Below are positions 8,545 through 20,018 of a stretch of 20,322 nucleotides of DNA, in pieces. This stretch comes from a virus. Position 1 is the first letter of the stretch, and every line of letters begins with the position of its first letter. The stretch covers positions 1 through 20,322 of IMG/VR virus record IMGVR_UViG_3300049479_000205. One strand, given 5' to 3'. The notes under the pieces were generated by a model. The model saw only the letters and a program-made list of their open reading frames with translations. It was not told the DNA's origin and did no database searches. Position numbers and translations under genes: made by a program.

Positions 8545-9075
8545 CTACGCGCTGGGGATCGTGTTGAACATGAACCGCGGCACGTCGTAGGTCGAGGTCT
8601 TCGTCTCGACGCCAAGCTCCACGTTGCCGGGCTTGAAGTTCGTCTCGTGCCGCGTCTCCACGGCGTCCTGGAGCGAGATCAGCACTTCGGGCGGGACATC
8701 GGTCCACTGGTTGAGCTTGACCAGCCACGTCGTCCCCAGAGGGAACGGCTGCGGGTCGCGCTGGCCATCGTGCTGCTTGAAAATGCGGACCTGCACCCAG
8801 TCCTTGCGGTAAACGCCGCCGTTGTCCACGCACAGGTGGCGCGGGTCGCCCTTCGGCGCGTTGATGAACTTCTCGGGCAGCTTCGCGCCGTCCCGGATCT
8901 TGAAGTTGTTGCGGTCGGTGCGGTCGATGTTGCCCGAGTCCTCCTCGTCCATCATCACCGCGACCCGCTGGGTGCGCTCGGCCTCCAGGATCTCCTGCTC
9001 GATTTCCTTCGGCGTCTTGGTCACTTCCATGACCTTCTCCCGGTCCTGCGGCGTCAGTGCGAAGTCCTTGCCCAT
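8545..9075 (-). CDS. Unassigned protein, probable virion or assembly component
   Basis: The product is 176 residues, soluble and acidic at the N-terminus. The first 70 residues look helical and charged (TPQDREKVMEVTKTPKEIEQ, then EILEAERTQRV); the C-terminal 110 residues look beta-rich, with WVQVRIFKQHDGQRDPQPFP and TTWLVKLNQWTDVPPEV, and end in DVPRFMFNTIPSA. I do not recognise the family. It lies between the capsid genes and the tailspike. Its leader is unusual: a 6-bp hairpin, five A residues and a GGAGG SD, nearly identical to the leader of the scaffold gene. A connector, head-completion or tailspike-associated role would suit the position, but nothing in the sequence proves it. Confidence 0.72.
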   Translation of the reverse strand: MGKDFALTPQDREKVMEVTKTPKEIEQEILEAERTQRVAVMMDEEDSGNIDRTDRNNFKIRDGAKLPEKFINAPKGDPRHLCVDNGGVYRKDWVQVRIFKQHDGQRDPQPFPLGTTWLVKLNQWTDVPPEVLISLQDAVETRHETNFKPGNVELGVETKTSTYDVPRFMFNTIPSA

Positions 9076-9083
9076 CTCTTGAT

Positions 9084-9112
9084 CCTCCGTGTTTTTCGCC
9101 TCGTCAGGCGAC
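9084..9112 (-). promoter_or_regulatory. Leader hairpin plus A-run and SD, copy B
   Basis: On the minus strand the RNA would read TCGCCT-GACG-AGGCGA, a 6-bp stem with a GACG loop, followed at once by AAAAACACGGAGG, whose GGAGG is the SD for the 176-aa protein. A second copy lies at 11612-11639 before the scaffold gene. The two copies differ at only two positions over about 28 bases, and those two are paired with each other (T-A here, C-G there). Confidence 0.6.
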
Positions 9113-9123
9113 GGTTGTTGGCT

Positions 9124-9145
9124 GGGGGCGGCCGAAGCCGCCCCC
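9124..9145 (-). terminator. Stable UUCG hairpin downstream of the capsid genes (terminator or processing/stability hairpin)
   Basis: On the minus strand this is GGGGGCGGC-TTCG-GCCGCCCCC, a perfect 9-bp GC stem closed by the very stable C(UUCG)G tetraloop, 17 bases after the stop of the 127-aa gene. No U-run follows (AGCCAACAACC), so it is not a standard intrinsic terminator. It could lower read-through from the highly expressed capsid genes into the tail genes, or protect the capsid mRNA 3' end. Confidence 0.5.
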
Positions 9146-9576: not shown

Positions 9577-10653
9577 CTACCACCGAGCGCAGCACTCGAT
9601 GCGGACCATGTACTCGTCCTCCAGGATGGCGGCGCCCAGGCACGCCTTCCAGCCCGCGGTCGCCCGCTGGTGCAGCGGGTCGCTGTTGCCGCCCGGCCGG
9701 TCGTAGTACGTCGCCGCCGCGCCCTCGAGCTTGATGACGCCGTAGGCGTCCTTGCCCATGACGAGGCAGGAGTACACGTCCGGGGCCGTGCCGCTGGTCG
9801 CCCGGAAGGTCGCCGCAGCGGTCGAGCCGCCCGTCGAGATCCCGGTCGCCGCATCCGGCCAGACCTTCGCCAGGGTGGTCGTCACGAACCGCACGTTGCG
9901 GTAGGTGCCGATCTCCGTGGGGTAGGCCACGCCGCCCGAAGCGTACTTCTGGCGGGGAATCCAGTCGCCCGTGGCGAAGCCGGCGTTGCTGTTCACCAGA
10001 TCGTGCGCGACGTGCGGGTGGATGATGCAGACGTAGGCCGGGGCGAGGGGGCTCGTGTCCACCTTCGTCGAGGCCGACATCTGGCCGTGGAAGTACTTCG
10101 CGTTGGCGCCCTCCAGCATGGTGATGGCGGTGTCCAGCGCGCGCTTGGTGATGCTGCCGGCCACGGTGGTCCGCGCGCCGACGCCGGTCGTCGGGCTCGC
10201 GCCGTCCGCCGTGACGCGCAGGAACGAAGTCCCGGCGTTGATCACGTCGCGGACGATCACGTCCTTGGTCTCGGCAGCCTGGAGCGCCAGCCGCTTCGTG
10301 GCCATCATCAGGACGTTGTCCGGATGCATGAAGTCCACGACATCGGTGATGCCGACCCAGTCGCCGTACCAGTAGACCGTCCCGAGGACGTTCTCGTAGG
10401 CGAGCTGCTTGCCCGACGGGGTGATGCCTTCGGACAGCGGCACGGTGTTGACGGCCAGCCGCAGCCAGCGGCGCCACATCACCTGGTTGCCGTTGCCCTT
10501 GGTGAGGGTCGTCTTCTGGCCGAAGCGGTCGTGCAGGATCTCCTGTTCCGCGATGGACAGGAAGGTCTTGATGTAGAGGGCTCTGGTCAGCGTCGGCATC
10601 GCGGGCGATACCTCGTTGGCCGACCGAAGCCCACTCAGGGTGTTGTACGCCAT
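9577..10653 (-). CDS. Major capsid protein, N4 gp56 family
   Basis: The product is 358 residues, within the usual length of the N4 gp56 family of HK97-fold coat proteins. Recognised family features are the N-terminal RALYIKTFLSIAEQEILHDR and FGQKTTLTKGNGNQVMWRRW (about 25-63), then LSEGITPSGKQL, then the central YGDWVGITDVVDFMHPDNVL, KRLALQAAETKDVIVRDVIN and a C-terminal KDAYGVIKLEG. It forms the icosahedral shell. An AAGGAGGA SD precedes the ATG with good spacing, as expected for a highly expressed gene. It follows the scaffold gene by 19 bases. Interestingly the coat is N4-type while the downstream tail and ejection genes follow the T7 order. Confidence 0.93.
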   Translation of the reverse strand: MAYNTLSGLRSANEVSPAMPTLTRALYIKTFLSIAEQEILHDRFGQKTTLTKGNGNQVMWRRWLRLAVNTVPLSEGITPSGKQLAYENVLGTVYWYGDWVGITDVVDFMHPDNVLMMATKRLALQAAETKDVIVRDVINAGTSFLRVTADGASPTTGVGARTTVAGSITKRALDTAITMLEGANAKYFHGQMSASTKVDTSPLAPAYVCIIHPHVAHDLVNSNAGFATGDWIPRQKYASGGVAYPTEIGTYRNVRFVTTTLAKVWPDAATGISTGGSTAAATFRATSGTAPDVYSCLVMGKDAYGVIKLEGAAATYYDRPGGNSDPLHQRATAGWKACLGAAILEDEYMVRIECCARW

Positions 10654-11606: not shown

Positions 11607-11873
11607 TCAACCCTCCGTGTTTTTCGCCCCGTCGGGCGATTCTCTCAGTCGTCCCATCAACCACGAGTTCAGGGATGCCGCCTCATGCAACTTCCCGTCC
11701 TCGAAGGCTCTCTTGAGCGGCCACTCAGGGCCGTCAACCGGCATCGGCGCCTCGCCGCGCCTCATGTCGGCCGTCAACTTCTCGATCAGCAGGTCAAGCG
11801 CCCCCGACCGGTGGGCCGCCCTCAGGGCCGCCAGCCGCGCCTCCTGCATCTCCAGCCGTTCCTGGCTCTCCAC
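11607..11873 (-). CDS. Small helical protein overlapping the portal gene end
   Basis: The frame runs from a GTG at 11873 (GGGAG about nine bases upstream) and gives 88 residues. Its first 80 bases overlap the last codons of the portal gene in a different frame. The protein is helical and charged (QERLEMQEARLAALRAAH, LIEKLTADMRRGE) and contains EWPLKRAFEDGKLHEAASLN, which looks like genuine protein rather than a shadow. Function unknown; small proteins between portal and scaffold often assist head assembly. An in-frame ATG at 11849 is an alternative start that would still overlap the portal gene. The last codons double as the leader hairpin of the scaffold gene. Confidence 0.65.
   Translation of the reverse strand: MESQERLEMQEARLAALRAAHRSGALDLLIEKLTADMRRGEAPMPVDGPEWPLKRAFEDGKLHEAASLNSWLMGRLRESPDGAKNTEG
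11612..11639 (-). promoter_or_regulatory. Leader hairpin plus A-run and SD, copy A (scaffold gene)
   Basis: On the minus strand the RNA would read TCGCCC-GACG-GGGCGA then AAAAACACGGAGG, with the scaffold ATG a few bases later. It matches the element at 9084-9112 except for one base pair, changed from T-A to C-G. Unlike copy B it lies inside a coding sequence (the C-terminal SPDGAKNTEG of the 88-aa gene), so ribosomes leaving that gene would pass through the hairpin. Confidence 0.6.
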
Positions 11874-13770
11874 CTTGCACCGCTCCCGCCTGCGCGGCCG
11901 TCTGGGCCGCAGCCATCGCCGCCTGGTACTCCACGATCAGCGCCCGGTAGTCCTCGGCGCTCATCACCATGTCGTCGCTCTCCTCCAGGATCTCCTTGAA
12001 CAGGCGCCGGTAGAGAACGTCCTTGCGGACGGGCGACGGCATCCCGCCGGCCTCGGCCTGCTGGGTGATCTGCGCAGCCATCATCAGGTTCTGGACGCGC
12101 GCGTCCTTCTCGGCGAGGAACTTCGACCCGGCCACCCGGACCAGCCACCCTCGGCGGATGTCCACGGGGCTGACCTTCTTGACCACCGACTTCTTGTCCT
12201 GCGTGATGCTGAAGACCACGTCCTCGTCGATGTACTGGGCGTTCATCTCCATCGCCGTGTTCAGGGCCTCCTGAATCAGGTCTTCCTCCACGGCCTCGAC
12301 GGCCCCGCCCAGTTTGGTCGCGATGATGTTCGCGTTGCGGGCGGTTCTGGTTGCAGACTCGCGTGAGCCGCTGGCGGTATTGACAGCGCCCGTCATCCGC
12401 TCGTGCCGCGCAATCGCAGCCTCCTCCACGGCGAACCCAAGCGGGAGGCCCTGGAAGTTCTTCTGGATCGGCGTGATCGCGCCCTGCTGCGTGACCTCGT
12501 GGCGCACGCCTGGGCCGCTCGGCTTCATGATGCCATCGACCAGCCAGTCCACAACGACCTCGGACTCTGGCTGGATCACGGCGTTCACGGCGTCGATGTT
12601 CTGGTTGTGGACGGCGTTGACAGTGTCCTGCTCGTCCAGCGCCTTCTCGATGATGCCGATGCCGTAGACGGCGCCCTCGATGGTCGTCAGCCGCGCGTTG
12701 TTGATCAGCAGGCGCCCCGAGTACATCGGAGTCGGCTCGCAGCGGATGACCGCCGTGTCGTTCGCCACGGCCACGATCCAGTTCTCGTAGATGCCGGCCT
12801 CGGGACCGCTCGCGATCTCGAACGTGCCGTGCTGTTCCTTGATCTCGACCTTGTTCGCACCCTGCGGCATCTGAAGCCCGAGCGCCATCTTGACCAGCGC
12901 CTCGGCCTCGTTGTCGGACGCGCGGTCCTCGGATGTGGCGTCGAACACGTTCTTCAGGTTCTCGTACAGGACGTACCCGGTGGCGTCCGGCTTCGTGAAC
13001 CGCTTCAGGTACTCGAGCGTGCGCCACGAACGCATGATCCGCAGCGCCGACATGTCGTCGTTCGGGTGCTGCTCCTGAACGTAGTTGAAGATCGACCCGA
13101 CCTTCAGGACCGGCCCCTGGAACACCACGTCCAACTCGCGCGGCGGCTCGGGCGGCGGCGCGAAGTCCGGCTTGGCCGGCGGCTCGACGCCCATCATCTG
13201 CGCGCGGATGACCATGCCCTGCCAGTCTTCCATGATCGACTGGTACTCGGCCTGGTAGTCGGCGGCCTGCTCGGTCCAGCGCGCCATCGCATCGGCGAAC
13301 TGCTTGTAGTTCACGGCGCGCTTGACGTACCAGTTCATCCACCACGGGCAGTTGCCGAGGATGCCGAGGGACTTGATTCCGGTCATCATCGTGCGCCGGT
13401 ACTTGCCCCACTCCATCTGGTAGCGGAGCAGGTACTTCATGTCCTCGGCCATCTTGTCGTCGATCTGGTTGTCCATGCCCTCGCGGGCCGGCCGCAGGGT
13501 GATGGCCTCGTCGCGCCCGAGGATCTGGTTGTAGATCTGCGGCGCCCACGTCTCGACGGCGTCGTGCGACACGCCGACGTAGCGGCACGAGCGGTTCGAC
13601 TGCTTGGCGTATTCGGCCCACTTCTTGTCGAAGCGGCAGAGGTACGCCATCATGCACCGCTTCCAGGTCTCCTCGAGTTCCGCGCGGTCGTCCTTCCACT
13701 GTCTCCAGTTGGTGACAACCTGCTCGCGAACCTGCTCGAGGGCGGCTGGCGATTTCAGCAGGACGGCCAT
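11794..13770 (-). CDS. Portal protein (podovirus head-tail connector)
   Basis: The product is 658 residues, within the range of podovirus portals. The N-terminal helix (QVVTNWRQWKDDRAELEETW, 17-36) and the following YVGVSHDAVETWAPQIYNQI are typical; later come PTPMYSGRLLINNARLTTIE and IIEKALDEQDTVNAVHNQNI, the portal wing/stem region, then a long helical part after ESATRTARNANIIATKLGGA. The C-terminal 40 residues are Gly/Ala/Pro-rich (AVQGGEPGTAGDAGGAAGGP) and look disordered, unlike the barrel helix of some P22-type portals. It forms the dodecameric vertex through which DNA passes. The ATG overlaps the terminase stop by one base (TGATG) with GGAGG six bases upstream, so the two genes are translationally coupled. 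Confidence 0.9.
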   Translation of the reverse strand: MAVLLKSPAALEQVREQVVTNWRQWKDDRAELEETWKRCMMAYLCRFDKKWAEYAKQSNRSCRYVGVSHDAVETWAPQIYNQILGRDEAITLRPAREGMDNQIDDKMAEDMKYLLRYQMEWGKYRRTMMTGIKSLGILGNCPWWMNWYVKRAVNYKQFADAMARWTEQAADYQAEYQSIMEDWQGMVIRAQMMGVEPPAKPDFAPPPEPPRELDVVFQGPVLKVGSIFNYVQEQHPNDDMSALRIMRSWRTLEYLKRFTKPDATGYVLYENLKNVFDATSEDRASDNEAEALVKMALGLQMPQGANKVEIKEQHGTFEIASGPEAGIYENWIVAVANDTAVIRCEPTPMYSGRLLINNARLTTIEGAVYGIGIIEKALDEQDTVNAVHNQNIDAVNAVIQPESEVVVDWLVDGIMKPSGPGVRHEVTQQGAITPIQKNFQGLPLGFAVEEAAIARHERMTGAVNTASGSRESATRTARNANIIATKLGGAVEAVEEDLIQEALNTAMEMNAQYIDEDVVFSITQDKKSVVKKVSPVDIRRGWLVRVAGSKFLAEKDARVQNLMMAAQITQQAEAGGMPSPVRKDVLYRRLFKEILEESDDMVMSAEDYRALIVEYQAAMAAAQTAAQAGAVQGGEPGTAGDAGGAAGGPEGGPPVGGA

Positions 13771-15191
13771 CAGAAGCCTCCACCGGGCAGGTCGGCTGCC
13801 TTGACGTACTGGAATGTCTCGCGGTACTGCCTGATCGTGCGCTTGCGAAGGTCGTCCCTCGTCGGGATGCCGGAGGCGATCATGGCCCGCAGGGTGTCGA
13901 TGGCGTGATCCTCGCCCCTAGTGTCGATGTCCTCGGGGTTGTTCTTGTCCCGCTGGATGACGGGCAGGGTCCGGATCAGGTGACGGCAGTTCCGCATGAT
14001 CTTGATTCGCGACTGGCCGTTGACCACGCGCAGCATCTCGTGGAGCGCCGCGATCTGGTTGACGCGGCTGTTCGGCCCCTTCTTCCACGGGTGCCAGACC
14101 ATGCGGTCAGGGTCGTCGTGCTTGCCGGTCAGCGCCTCGGCGATCATCCCCATGCCGCTCTGGGTGTCCCAGCACTGGCTGTCCAGCCATCCGTAGGGGA
14201 CGTACAACTCGTTCATGCGCTCCATGCCAGCGAGCTTGCGCCTGACCGTCTCCGGCGCCTCCTGCGTGCCCACGTTGGCCTTGCCGCCCCAGCCGTAGGC
14301 TTCCATGCCGATGATCAGGTCGCCGTCGTAGACGAAGCCCCAGAGGCCGCAGTACGGCTCCGTGTAACCCCAGTCCAGGGCGCGGATGATCTTCTTGTCG
14401 GCCGGGATCGGGGCAGGGTCGATGACGTGGACGCGGGGGTCGAACTCGGGGAAGGCCGAGCCGACGGCGATGTTCCAGTCGCCCTCGCGCATGGCCCGCG
14501 CCAGCACCGGGTCGCTGATCTCGTAGACACGCCCGCCGTAGCCCGGATCGGCCTCCATGAGGATGCGGTTGTCCTCGAGCCTCGACGGGATGTAGACCCG
14601 GTGGTAGGTCGTGCCGTCCTTGCGGCGCACGATGACGGCCTGCCCCGGAGGAGCGATGTCGATGAACCGCTCCTTGACCCACGCATGGCCGGGGCCGCCG
14701 GGGTTGCCCGTGGCGCGCATCCGCGTCGGCACGCCCTTGGATGCGGTCCTCATGCGGTGGAACAGGTAGGTGTAGATGTAGTCCGTCTCGTACTGCGTCA
14801 ACTCATCGACGCCGATCCATGTGTACTGCTGGCCCTGATGCTTCAGGGCATCGCCATCGCGGTCGGCGGCGCGGAACTGAAGGATCGCCCCGGACGGGAA
14901 CTGGAACTCGTGCTTCGATTCCTTCCAGATCCCAGAGCCGTACACCGGGCAGAAGATCTCCTGCGCGCGCCTGATGACGTAGCTCATGTCCGGCGTGAAC
15001 CGGCGCAGGAACAGGCCGACCCACTTCGAGCCGTACTCGATCCCGCGGGAGTAGTCGCCCAGGAGGCCGTCGGTCTTGCCGCCGCCCACGGCGCCGCCGT
15101 AGAAGCACTCCTCCGCCGGACACTGGACAAGCAGCGACTGCGGCCCCGGCTGGGGCTCCCACGCTACCCTGTCCTGGTACGGCGCAGCCAT
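13770..15191 (-). CDS. Terminase large subunit (packaging ATPase-nuclease)
   Basis: The product is 473 residues, a normal length. ATPase domain: Walker A YGGAVGGGKT (31-40), Walker B WIGVDE (125-130) with the catalytic Glu, and the coupling motif ATGNPGG (160-166). Nuclease domain: ALDWGY with D273, WLDS with D337, and GEDHAIDTLRA with D428 or D432, consistent with the RNase H-like three-acid site. It pumps and cuts phage DNA at the portal. It starts 2 bases after the stop of the small basic protein and overlaps the portal gene by one base, a terL-portal order seen in many podoviruses, whereas in linear T7 terL is at the far end. The ATG at 15191 has a GGAAGGTGAAG stretch upstream. Confidence 0.95.
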   Translation of the reverse strand: MAAPYQDRVAWEPQPGPQSLLVQCPAEECFYGGAVGGGKTDGLLGDYSRGIEYGSKWVGLFLRRFTPDMSYVIRRAQEIFCPVYGSGIWKESKHEFQFPSGAILQFRAADRDGDALKHQGQQYTWIGVDELTQYETDYIYTYLFHRMRTASKGVPTRMRATGNPGGPGHAWVKERFIDIAPPGQAVIVRRKDGTTYHRVYIPSRLEDNRILMEADPGYGGRVYEISDPVLARAMREGDWNIAVGSAFPEFDPRVHVIDPAPIPADKKIIRALDWGYTEPYCGLWGFVYDGDLIIGMEAYGWGGKANVGTQEAPETVRRKLAGMERMNELYVPYGWLDSQCWDTQSGMGMIAEALTGKHDDPDRMVWHPWKKGPNSRVNQIAALHEMLRVVNGQSRIKIMRNCRHLIRTLPVIQRDKNNPEDIDTRGEDHAIDTLRAMIASGIPTRDDLRKRTIRQYRETFQYVKAADLPGGGF

Positions 15192-18929: not shown

Positions 18930-18969
18930 CTGGGGATTTTTACCCAACCACCTGGGGATTTTTCCCCAG
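18930..18969. repeat. Tandem CTGGGGATTTTT repeats, second one part of an inverted repeat
   Basis: CTGGGGATTTTT occurs at 18930-18941 and again at 18952-18963, 22 bases (about two helical turns) apart. The second continues into TCCCCAG, giving a 7-bp-arm inverted repeat at 18952-18969. They lie in the 116-base gap between the 121-aa and 70-aa genes. No T-run follows on the transcribed minus strand, so they look more like protein-binding sites than a terminator. Confidence 0.45.
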
Positions 18970-18985
18970 TTTCCAATCTTCGCAA

Positions 18986-19198
18986 CTATAGCCAGTCGCC
19001 CATCTCACCCAACACCGCAGCCCCCACCGCAGGCAACCCCACGCCCACAGGACCACTCAGCACCAGCGACGAACCGTTGTCGAAACGAAGCACCAACTCG
19101 TTCTCCTCCGTCCGAAACACCCGCACCACCCGCGCCCCACCCACGCACAGCCGAACCAACTCCACACCGTCCTCCACCGTTTCCAACGGATTTGCCAT
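18986..19198 (-). CDS. Small protein of unknown function (70 aa)
   Basis: The ATG at 19198 gives MANPLETVEDGVELVRLCVG and a 70-residue product; a GTG at 19210 would add four residues but has no room for an SD, whereas GGGAAGG lies about eleven bases upstream of the ATG. The protein seems a compact beta structure (VRVFRTEENELVLRFDNGSS, LVLSGPVGVG) and ends MGDWL. I do not recognise it. It is followed by the tandem CTGGGGATTTTT region and then the zinc-ribbon-like gene, and is preceded by a gap of about 280 bases. Confidence 0.55.
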   Translation of the reverse strand: MANPLETVEDGVELVRLCVGGARVVRVFRTEENELVLRFDNGSSLVLSGPVGVGLPAVGAAVLGEMGDWL

Positions 19199-19478: not shown

Positions 19479-20018
19479 CTATTCCTCCGGGTCGTCCTCG
19501 GTCACGGACCTGAGGCGCCCCGCCTCCGGGCCCGCCGCCGCCGCCGGCCCCGCCAGACCGCCCAGGAGGCGCGCAGCCGCCGCCTGCCATTCCTCCATGC
19601 TCGTCACCGGCACCGGCAGTATGATCACCTTGTCCCGCCCGCCGGCCGCGTCACCGGCCAATCCAAGCGCCTCACGCTCCATCTCGTGAATGGTCGCGAC
19701 CGCGCGCGTCAGCGAGCCCAACGCCGCCGCCACGTTCCCATCCCGCCCAACGCCCTCGCCCCGGTCGATCATCCGCCGCGCCTTGTCCGCCAGCTTCGCC
19801 AGCTCCGCGCAGTCCCGCGCCTGCCGGACCCGGATTGCCTGGACGGGCGAGCCGGCGCCGGGGCGCGGCGCGTCGAGGTCGGCCGGCGGCGCGCTGGTCA
19901 ATTCCTGACCGGTGACGTTTTGCGCCGCTGCGCGTTTTTCCCCAGTTGCAGACATTCGCAACTCAGCGCGCCCCCCCTCCTGTCCGCTTCCGCCCTCGCT
20001 TGCCGTCTTGGTTCCCAT
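19479..20018 (-). CDS. First gene of the leftward operon; possible small terminase or regulatory protein
   Basis: The ATG at 20018 is chosen because AGGAGG (20027-20032) lies eight bases upstream; two earlier in-frame ATGs lack an SD. The product is 179 residues. The first 60 residues are low-complexity (Gly, Ala, Glu, Pro). A helical core at about 60-115 (RQARDCAELAKLADKARRMI, then GNVAAALGSLTRAVATIHEM) is followed by DKVIILPVPVTSMEEWQAAA, a pattern that recalls the C-terminal part of some small terminases, and by an acidic end (VTEDDPEE). No helix-turn-helix was found, so the assignment is tentative. It is the first leftward gene after the control region, a place that suits either a small terminase or a regulator. 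Confidence 0.6.
   Translation of the reverse strand: MGTKTASEGGSGQEGGRAELRMSATGEKRAAAQNVTGQELTSAPPADLDAPRPGAGSPVQAIRVRQARDCAELAKLADKARRMIDRGEGVGRDGNVAAALGSLTRAVATIHEMEREALGLAGDAAGGRDKVIILPVPVTSMEEWQAAAARLLGGLAGPAAAAGPEAGRLRSVTEDDPEE

Follow-up and report, generated by a model that had tools for sequence, protein, structure and literature searches.

The 20.3-kilobase (kb) IMG/VR record IMGVR_UViG_3300049479_000205, from an uncultured phage, was analysed over its whole length (the window) and carries two copies of a short hairpin, one before a putative capsid scaffold gene and one before g176, a gene encoding 176 amino acids (aa). The hairpin is conserved in related phages, and it is probably a cis-acting RNA element in the translation initiation of both genes. 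Our comparisons establish its sequence, structure, location, copy number, conservation and covariation. We infer action in the mRNA, at the start of translation, from four features: a constant spacing to the Shine-Dalgarno sequence, tolerance of G-U pairs, strand specificity, and the lack of promoter and terminator features. Regarding the mechanism, an operator bound by a protein is the leading candidate, although the comparative evidence leaves it slightly short of an even chance.

Both copies lie on the minus strand, as do all structural genes of the window. Copy 1 reads TCGCCTGACGAGGCGAAAAACACGGAGG at 9111-9084, upstream of g176, and copy 2 reads TCGCCCGACGGGGCGAAAAACACGGAGG at 11639-11612, upstream of the scaffold gene. 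They are identical at 26 of 28 bases, both mismatches falling on the pair that closes the loop (U-A in copy 1, C-G in copy 2). The recurrence had been noticed in an earlier, sequence-only reading of the window, and an all-against-all scan confirmed the pair, which differs in one base pair (T-A/C-G), as the sole 28-mer pair with at most two mismatches; no such pair arose in 10 first-order Markov simulations. The length of 28 bases given in that reading also stands, while the end of copy 1 had been placed one base too far, at 9112, the true span being 9084-9111. GGAGG and a start codon follow both stems; AAAAACACGGAGG, said to follow the copies, belongs inside the 28-mer. The minus-strand placement had not been stated, and it had been overlooked that copy 2 falls within the 3' end of a conserved open reading frame (ORF) of 88 aa.

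The 17-base core GGCGAAAAACACGGAGG occurs only at these two sites in the window, with 0.11 matches (at most three mismatches) expected per shuffle. Both copies are predicted to fold (z = -3.2 and -3.7) with the Shine-Dalgarno sequence left open. In the mRNA, the stem (CGCC-Y / R-GGCG, loop usually GACG) extends from about -34 to -19 relative to the start codon. An A-rich single-stranded linker of about 7 nucleotides (nt) lies between it and GGAGG, so the Shine-Dalgarno sequence stays free. The distance from the element to the start of translation is fixed at both genes. No U-tract of the kind found in intrinsic terminators lies 3' of the hairpin, where there is an A-tract instead, and no -35/-10 promoter match was found at the motif. 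An Rfam search of the window, the leaders and the relatives matched no family.

Conservation of the hairpin and its stem

A capsid-protein search of IMG/VR, whose records may be fragments, yielded three relatives with the element in their leaders at identical spacing. Scans of the same collection with the exact 28-mer and 17-mer gave no match, and a degenerate motif, YGACGR-N6-AAACACGGAGG, was needed. It matched 22 contigs, in which the genuine members of lineage A are relatives of the window phage that carry the motif before the scaffold gene, before g176 or in both places, and about nine distinct matches are unrelated chance hits. Alignment searches with portal and capsid proteins, which make no use of the motif, brought in another two, more divergent members, both with the hairpin at the scaffold gene and one with a capsid protein just 52% identical to that of the window. 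Eight genomes, whose major capsid proteins share 52-67% identity with that of the window, span both sites, and in every one of them the hairpin precedes scaffold gene and g176 with identical linker and Shine-Dalgarno spacing. The covariance-model search of related phages proposed in the sequence-only reading was carried out with model R1 on whole records and recovered the hairpin at both genes in these eight (G000, G001, G002, G003, G004, G005, G006 and G009). G007 and G008 also have both sites, with leaders identical to those of G005 where compared, and the fragments G010, G011 and G012, which end before g176, have the scaffold site alone.

No further match to R1 at E < 0.1 was found over records of 43-45 kb. 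Similarly, capsid relatives of about 35% identity or less (L041-L058, L073-L077) gave no R1 match below E = 0.1 in those searched, and their leaders were inspected by eye. The expectation that related phages keep the hairpin with its stem unbroken held in close relatives; relatives at about 35% capsid identity lack the hairpin. As far as seen, the element is restricted to the clade of the window phage and to a second lineage, B, described below; no portal relatives were found in bacterial genomes. In lineage A the scaffold proteins share just 25-44% and the g176 proteins 35-50% identity with their counterparts in the window, which makes the leader much the best conserved part.

The stem is paired in 85 of 85 cells, that is, at five pairs in each of the 17 gapless sites among 18 distinct ones; the remaining site, before g176 of the most divergent genome, G003, has lost two bases and was excluded from this count. 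The loop-closing pair varies between C-G, U-A and U-G, and in G001 CGACC/GGTCG replaces CGCCC/GGGCG, an exchange of A-U for C-G. Double-sided changes thus occur in two pairs, the other three being invariant and hence uninformative. The covariation score was matched by one of 500 shuffles, and slid controls were 26-55% paired. The stem covaries in the manner of a conserved structured cis-regulatory RNA, within limited variation. The closing pair is a G-U wobble at four of the 17 sites, and such intermediates favour RNA over a DNA palindrome.

The 88-aa ORF that overlaps copy 2 has homologues of 82-91 aa in all lineage A phages, with the motif GPEWPLKRA, and in most relatives its stop lies 4 nt before the scaffold start or sometimes overlaps it. 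Pairwise identity at 4-fold-degenerate third bases is 0.83 in the hairpin codons versus 0.34 in the remaining ORF; of the four such columns in the hairpin, only that of the closing pair (C/T) varies. The encoded residues vary across the same codons (TCG/ACG/GCG; GGG/GAG), and copy 1, which is intergenic in the window, shares the hairpin sequence with the coding copy 2. The conserved synonymous bases indicate that the constraint acts on the nucleic acid and not on the 88-aa protein. Conservation also goes beyond pairing and is sequence-specific: four of the five stem pairs are almost fixed. Near-invariant stem letters next to scaffold and g176 proteins of 25-50% identity, together with the conserved 4-fold bases, point to sequence-specific recognition. 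The proposal that an RNA element sets translation is well supported by the eight genomes with both copies, the stem pairs retained through compensatory and wobble changes, the fixed Shine-Dalgarno distance and the conserved synonymous bases.

The degenerate motif also matched contig L022, where it precedes a scaffold gene (Pfam Phage_scaffold, E = 2e-12); the capsid protein of this phage is a different one, of the SU10_MCP type. Almost all relatives of L022, which form lineage B, carry a hairpin of four base pairs upstream of the scaffold Shine-Dalgarno sequence, CGCC-(GACG, GCGA, GCAA or GCGG)-GGCG, and in one member the stem is altered on both sides (CGGC-GACG-GCCG). Model R2, built from lineage B only, has the lineage A leaders as its best match in G003 (E = 9e-5) and G004 (E = 0.002). 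Because it was the lineage A motif, scanned for in a very large collection, that led to lineage B, the likeness in letters was selected for, and the independent part of this result is the retention of the hairpin among the B relatives. Homology between the scaffolds of the two lineages was not detectable, and each lineage B genome has one convincing copy. In the scaffold leaders of L084, L090, L094 and L110, a second hairpin (GGGGAGCGATATCCCC type) with apparent compensatory changes lies directly 5' of the small one.

Possible functions of the hairpin

In the operator reading, the hairpin would belong to the translation-initiation regions of the late scaffold and g176 mRNAs. It would be bound by a protein of capsid assembly, for which free scaffold and the g176 product are the likeliest candidates, and since it falls inside the 30S footprint, the bound protein would shut out the ribosome. 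The sequence-only reading had named a coat or scaffold autoregulator as a possible binder. Scaffold and g176 might in this way be co-produced and turned off once unassembled protein builds up. The near-invariant letters of the stem and the restriction to two genes favour such a specific ligand over mere stability. The similar lineage B hairpin before a Phage_scaffold gene, with a double-sided change of its own, also speaks for the operator. Several observations weigh on the other side. The loop is GACG at nearly all sites, with GAGG before the G003 scaffold gene and GCCG before g176 of G006, and since it is not strictly kept in either lineage, a protein that reads the loop is unlikely in general. 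Variation in the loop, and the presence of the hairpin beside scaffolds that are unrelated, speak for stability over a ligand. The G003 g176 leader could form CGCC-GGGG-GGCG, but other folds compete with it and no unambiguous version of five base pairs is seen. Furthermore, the major capsid protein gene has no such hairpin, no RNA-binding family was matched by the scaffold and g176 proteins, and a role without a ligand explains the identical facts.

That role is the main rival: as an enhancer or insulator, the hairpin and its A-rich linker would keep upstream G+C-rich RNA off the Shine-Dalgarno sequence, offer the 30S subunit a standby surface and raise the constitutive translation of two highly expressed late genes. 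The open Shine-Dalgarno sequence in the predicted fold, the conserved linker, the constancy of the stem while the loop varies, the same layout in an unrelated lineage with a non-homologous scaffold, and the abundance of small hairpins near starts in these genomes all agree with it. Pure stability, however, predicts that the stem drifts with compensation, while four of five pairs hardly change, and it leaves unexplained why two genes are chosen and the major capsid gene is not. Because the evidence pulls both ways, our preference for the protein-bound operator is tentative, and the ligand-free role is to be regarded as quite possible, if on the doubtful side. Somewhat more doubtful still is the wider proposal that the hairpin represents a previously undescribed class of phage translational operator, which would occur twice per genome, let a single RNA-binding assembly protein couple the synthesis of scaffold and another late protein, and stand also at scaffold genes of an unrelated lineage, having been acquired or evolved more than once.

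Other explanations fare worse. It is improbable that the hairpin serves mRNA processing or stability, marking or protecting the 5' end of a processed late transcript. A strong G+C-rich hairpin without a U-tract does lie upstream of the g176 copy in all eight genomes (UUCG-capped in the window), which on this account would be the 3' end of the capsid mRNA, and a further hairpin lies upstream of the lineage B copy; the scaffold copy, however, is within a translated ORF and has no such hairpin before it, and processing needs no fixed Shine-Dalgarno distance. The UUCG-capped hairpin itself is possibly a 3' end or a processing barrier of the capsid mRNA. A DNA element, which would serve a phage RNA polymerase or sigma factor as promoter or operator in the manner of the hairpin promoters of the N4 virion RNA polymerase or the T7 phi9/phi10 promoters, appears very improbable. 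The N4 promoters are short G+C hairpins repeated upstream of genes, a likeness shared by our asymmetric motif before late genes, and the window's capsid protein is a distant N4-gp56 relative; G001 also encodes a sigma-70-type factor with regions 2 and 4 (L060:16806-17660). In contrast to N4, the element includes the Shine-Dalgarno sequence, ends at most 10 nt from the start codon and matches no -35/-10 boxes, while the G-U pairs at four of 17 sites disrupt a DNA palindrome. No giant virion polymerase was present among the proteins scanned, and a Pfam RNA_pol search of six relatives was empty, although its positive control also gave no match. Readings as a T7-type polymerase system, a promoter or a terminator found no support. 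Finally, the near-identity of the window copies and the coding position of copy 2 might suggest coincidence, recent duplication or conservation of the ORF C-terminus. This is hardly credible and was refuted by the orthologous pairs kept in eight divergent genomes, the constraint on 4-fold sites while the encoded residue varies, and the stem covariation, copy 1 being intergenic in any case.

Genomic setting and related systems

The coordinates of the element and of its surroundings are collected in Table 1. The scaffold assignment rests on gene order and protein composition, without a profile match, and is putative. A distant relative of the major capsid protein bears the annotation 'N4-gp56 family'. 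The structural genes also include a 127-aa gene, g176 and a large tail-spike-like gene. The g176 protein has a variable N-terminus and a conserved beta-rich C-terminal domain; its fold had no match in the PDB, and only weak matches to uncharacterised podophage proteins were seen. In INPHARED, neither a g176 relative nor a near portal relative nor the leader was found. In addition, a leader-like repeat (18952-18987 and 19928-19963; 78% identity over 36 bases; family D18) with a five-T run and CCCCAGTT might be a second twice-used element of the window, and G001 encodes a C-5 cytosine methylase (L060:9568-10671).

Table 1. Positions of the hairpin copies and neighbouring features in the window
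Feature	Positions	Strand	Remark
Terminase gene	13770-15191	-	
Portal gene	11794-13770	-	
88-aa ORF, conserved	11607-11873	-	between portal and scaffold; last codons encode hairpin copy 2
Hairpin copy 2, UCGCC-C(GACG)G-GGCGA	11624-11639	-	scaffold leader, within final codons of the 88-aa ORF
Linker AAAACAC and Shine-Dalgarno GGAGG of scaffold gene	11612-11623	-	
Putative capsid scaffold gene, 310 aa	10673-11605	-	position between portal and major capsid protein
Major capsid protein gene	9577-10653	-	phrog_1357, distant N4-gp56 family relative
UUCG-capped strong G+C hairpin	9124-9145	-	between the 127-aa gene and hairpin copy 1
Hairpin copy 1, UCGCC-U(GACG)A-GGCGA	9096-9111	-	intergenic leader of g176
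Linker AAAACAC and Shine-Dalgarno GGAGG of g176	9084-9095	-	7 nt + 5 nt past hairpin copy 1
g176, 176-aa gene	8545-9075	-	homologues in seven relatives, one cut by contig end

Some known systems invite comparison. Wyckoff and Casjens are said to have reported in 1985 that the scaffolding gene of phage P22 is autoregulated, with post-transcriptional control at the scaffold mRNA, and to our knowledge no RNA hairpin or other RNA target has been defined there. The present element likewise sits at a scaffold mRNA; the capsid and scaffold of P22 are different, and here it is the RNA element that is defined and the regulation that is proposed. In RNA phages of the MS2 type, a small operator hairpin at the start of a phage gene is bound by the capsid protein. 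Our hairpin resembles it in size and place, whereas that of MS2 includes the start codon and belongs to an RNA genome. The thrS operator of E. coli represses translation by competition with the 30S subunit. For the operator reading, thrS (PMC7373986) is the system of comparison, but it is a much larger structure that imitates the anticodon arm of a tRNA, while the present hairpin has no likeness to tRNA. A literature search, limited to open-licence papers, found no description of this element.

The post-transcriptional control of P22 scaffold synthesis has been known genetically for decades. The hairpin described here is a compact RNA element at scaffold genes that has phylogenetic support and is replicated internally, before a second gene of the same genome. 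Being the second target, g176 also gives a hint of what its otherwise unclassified protein may do.
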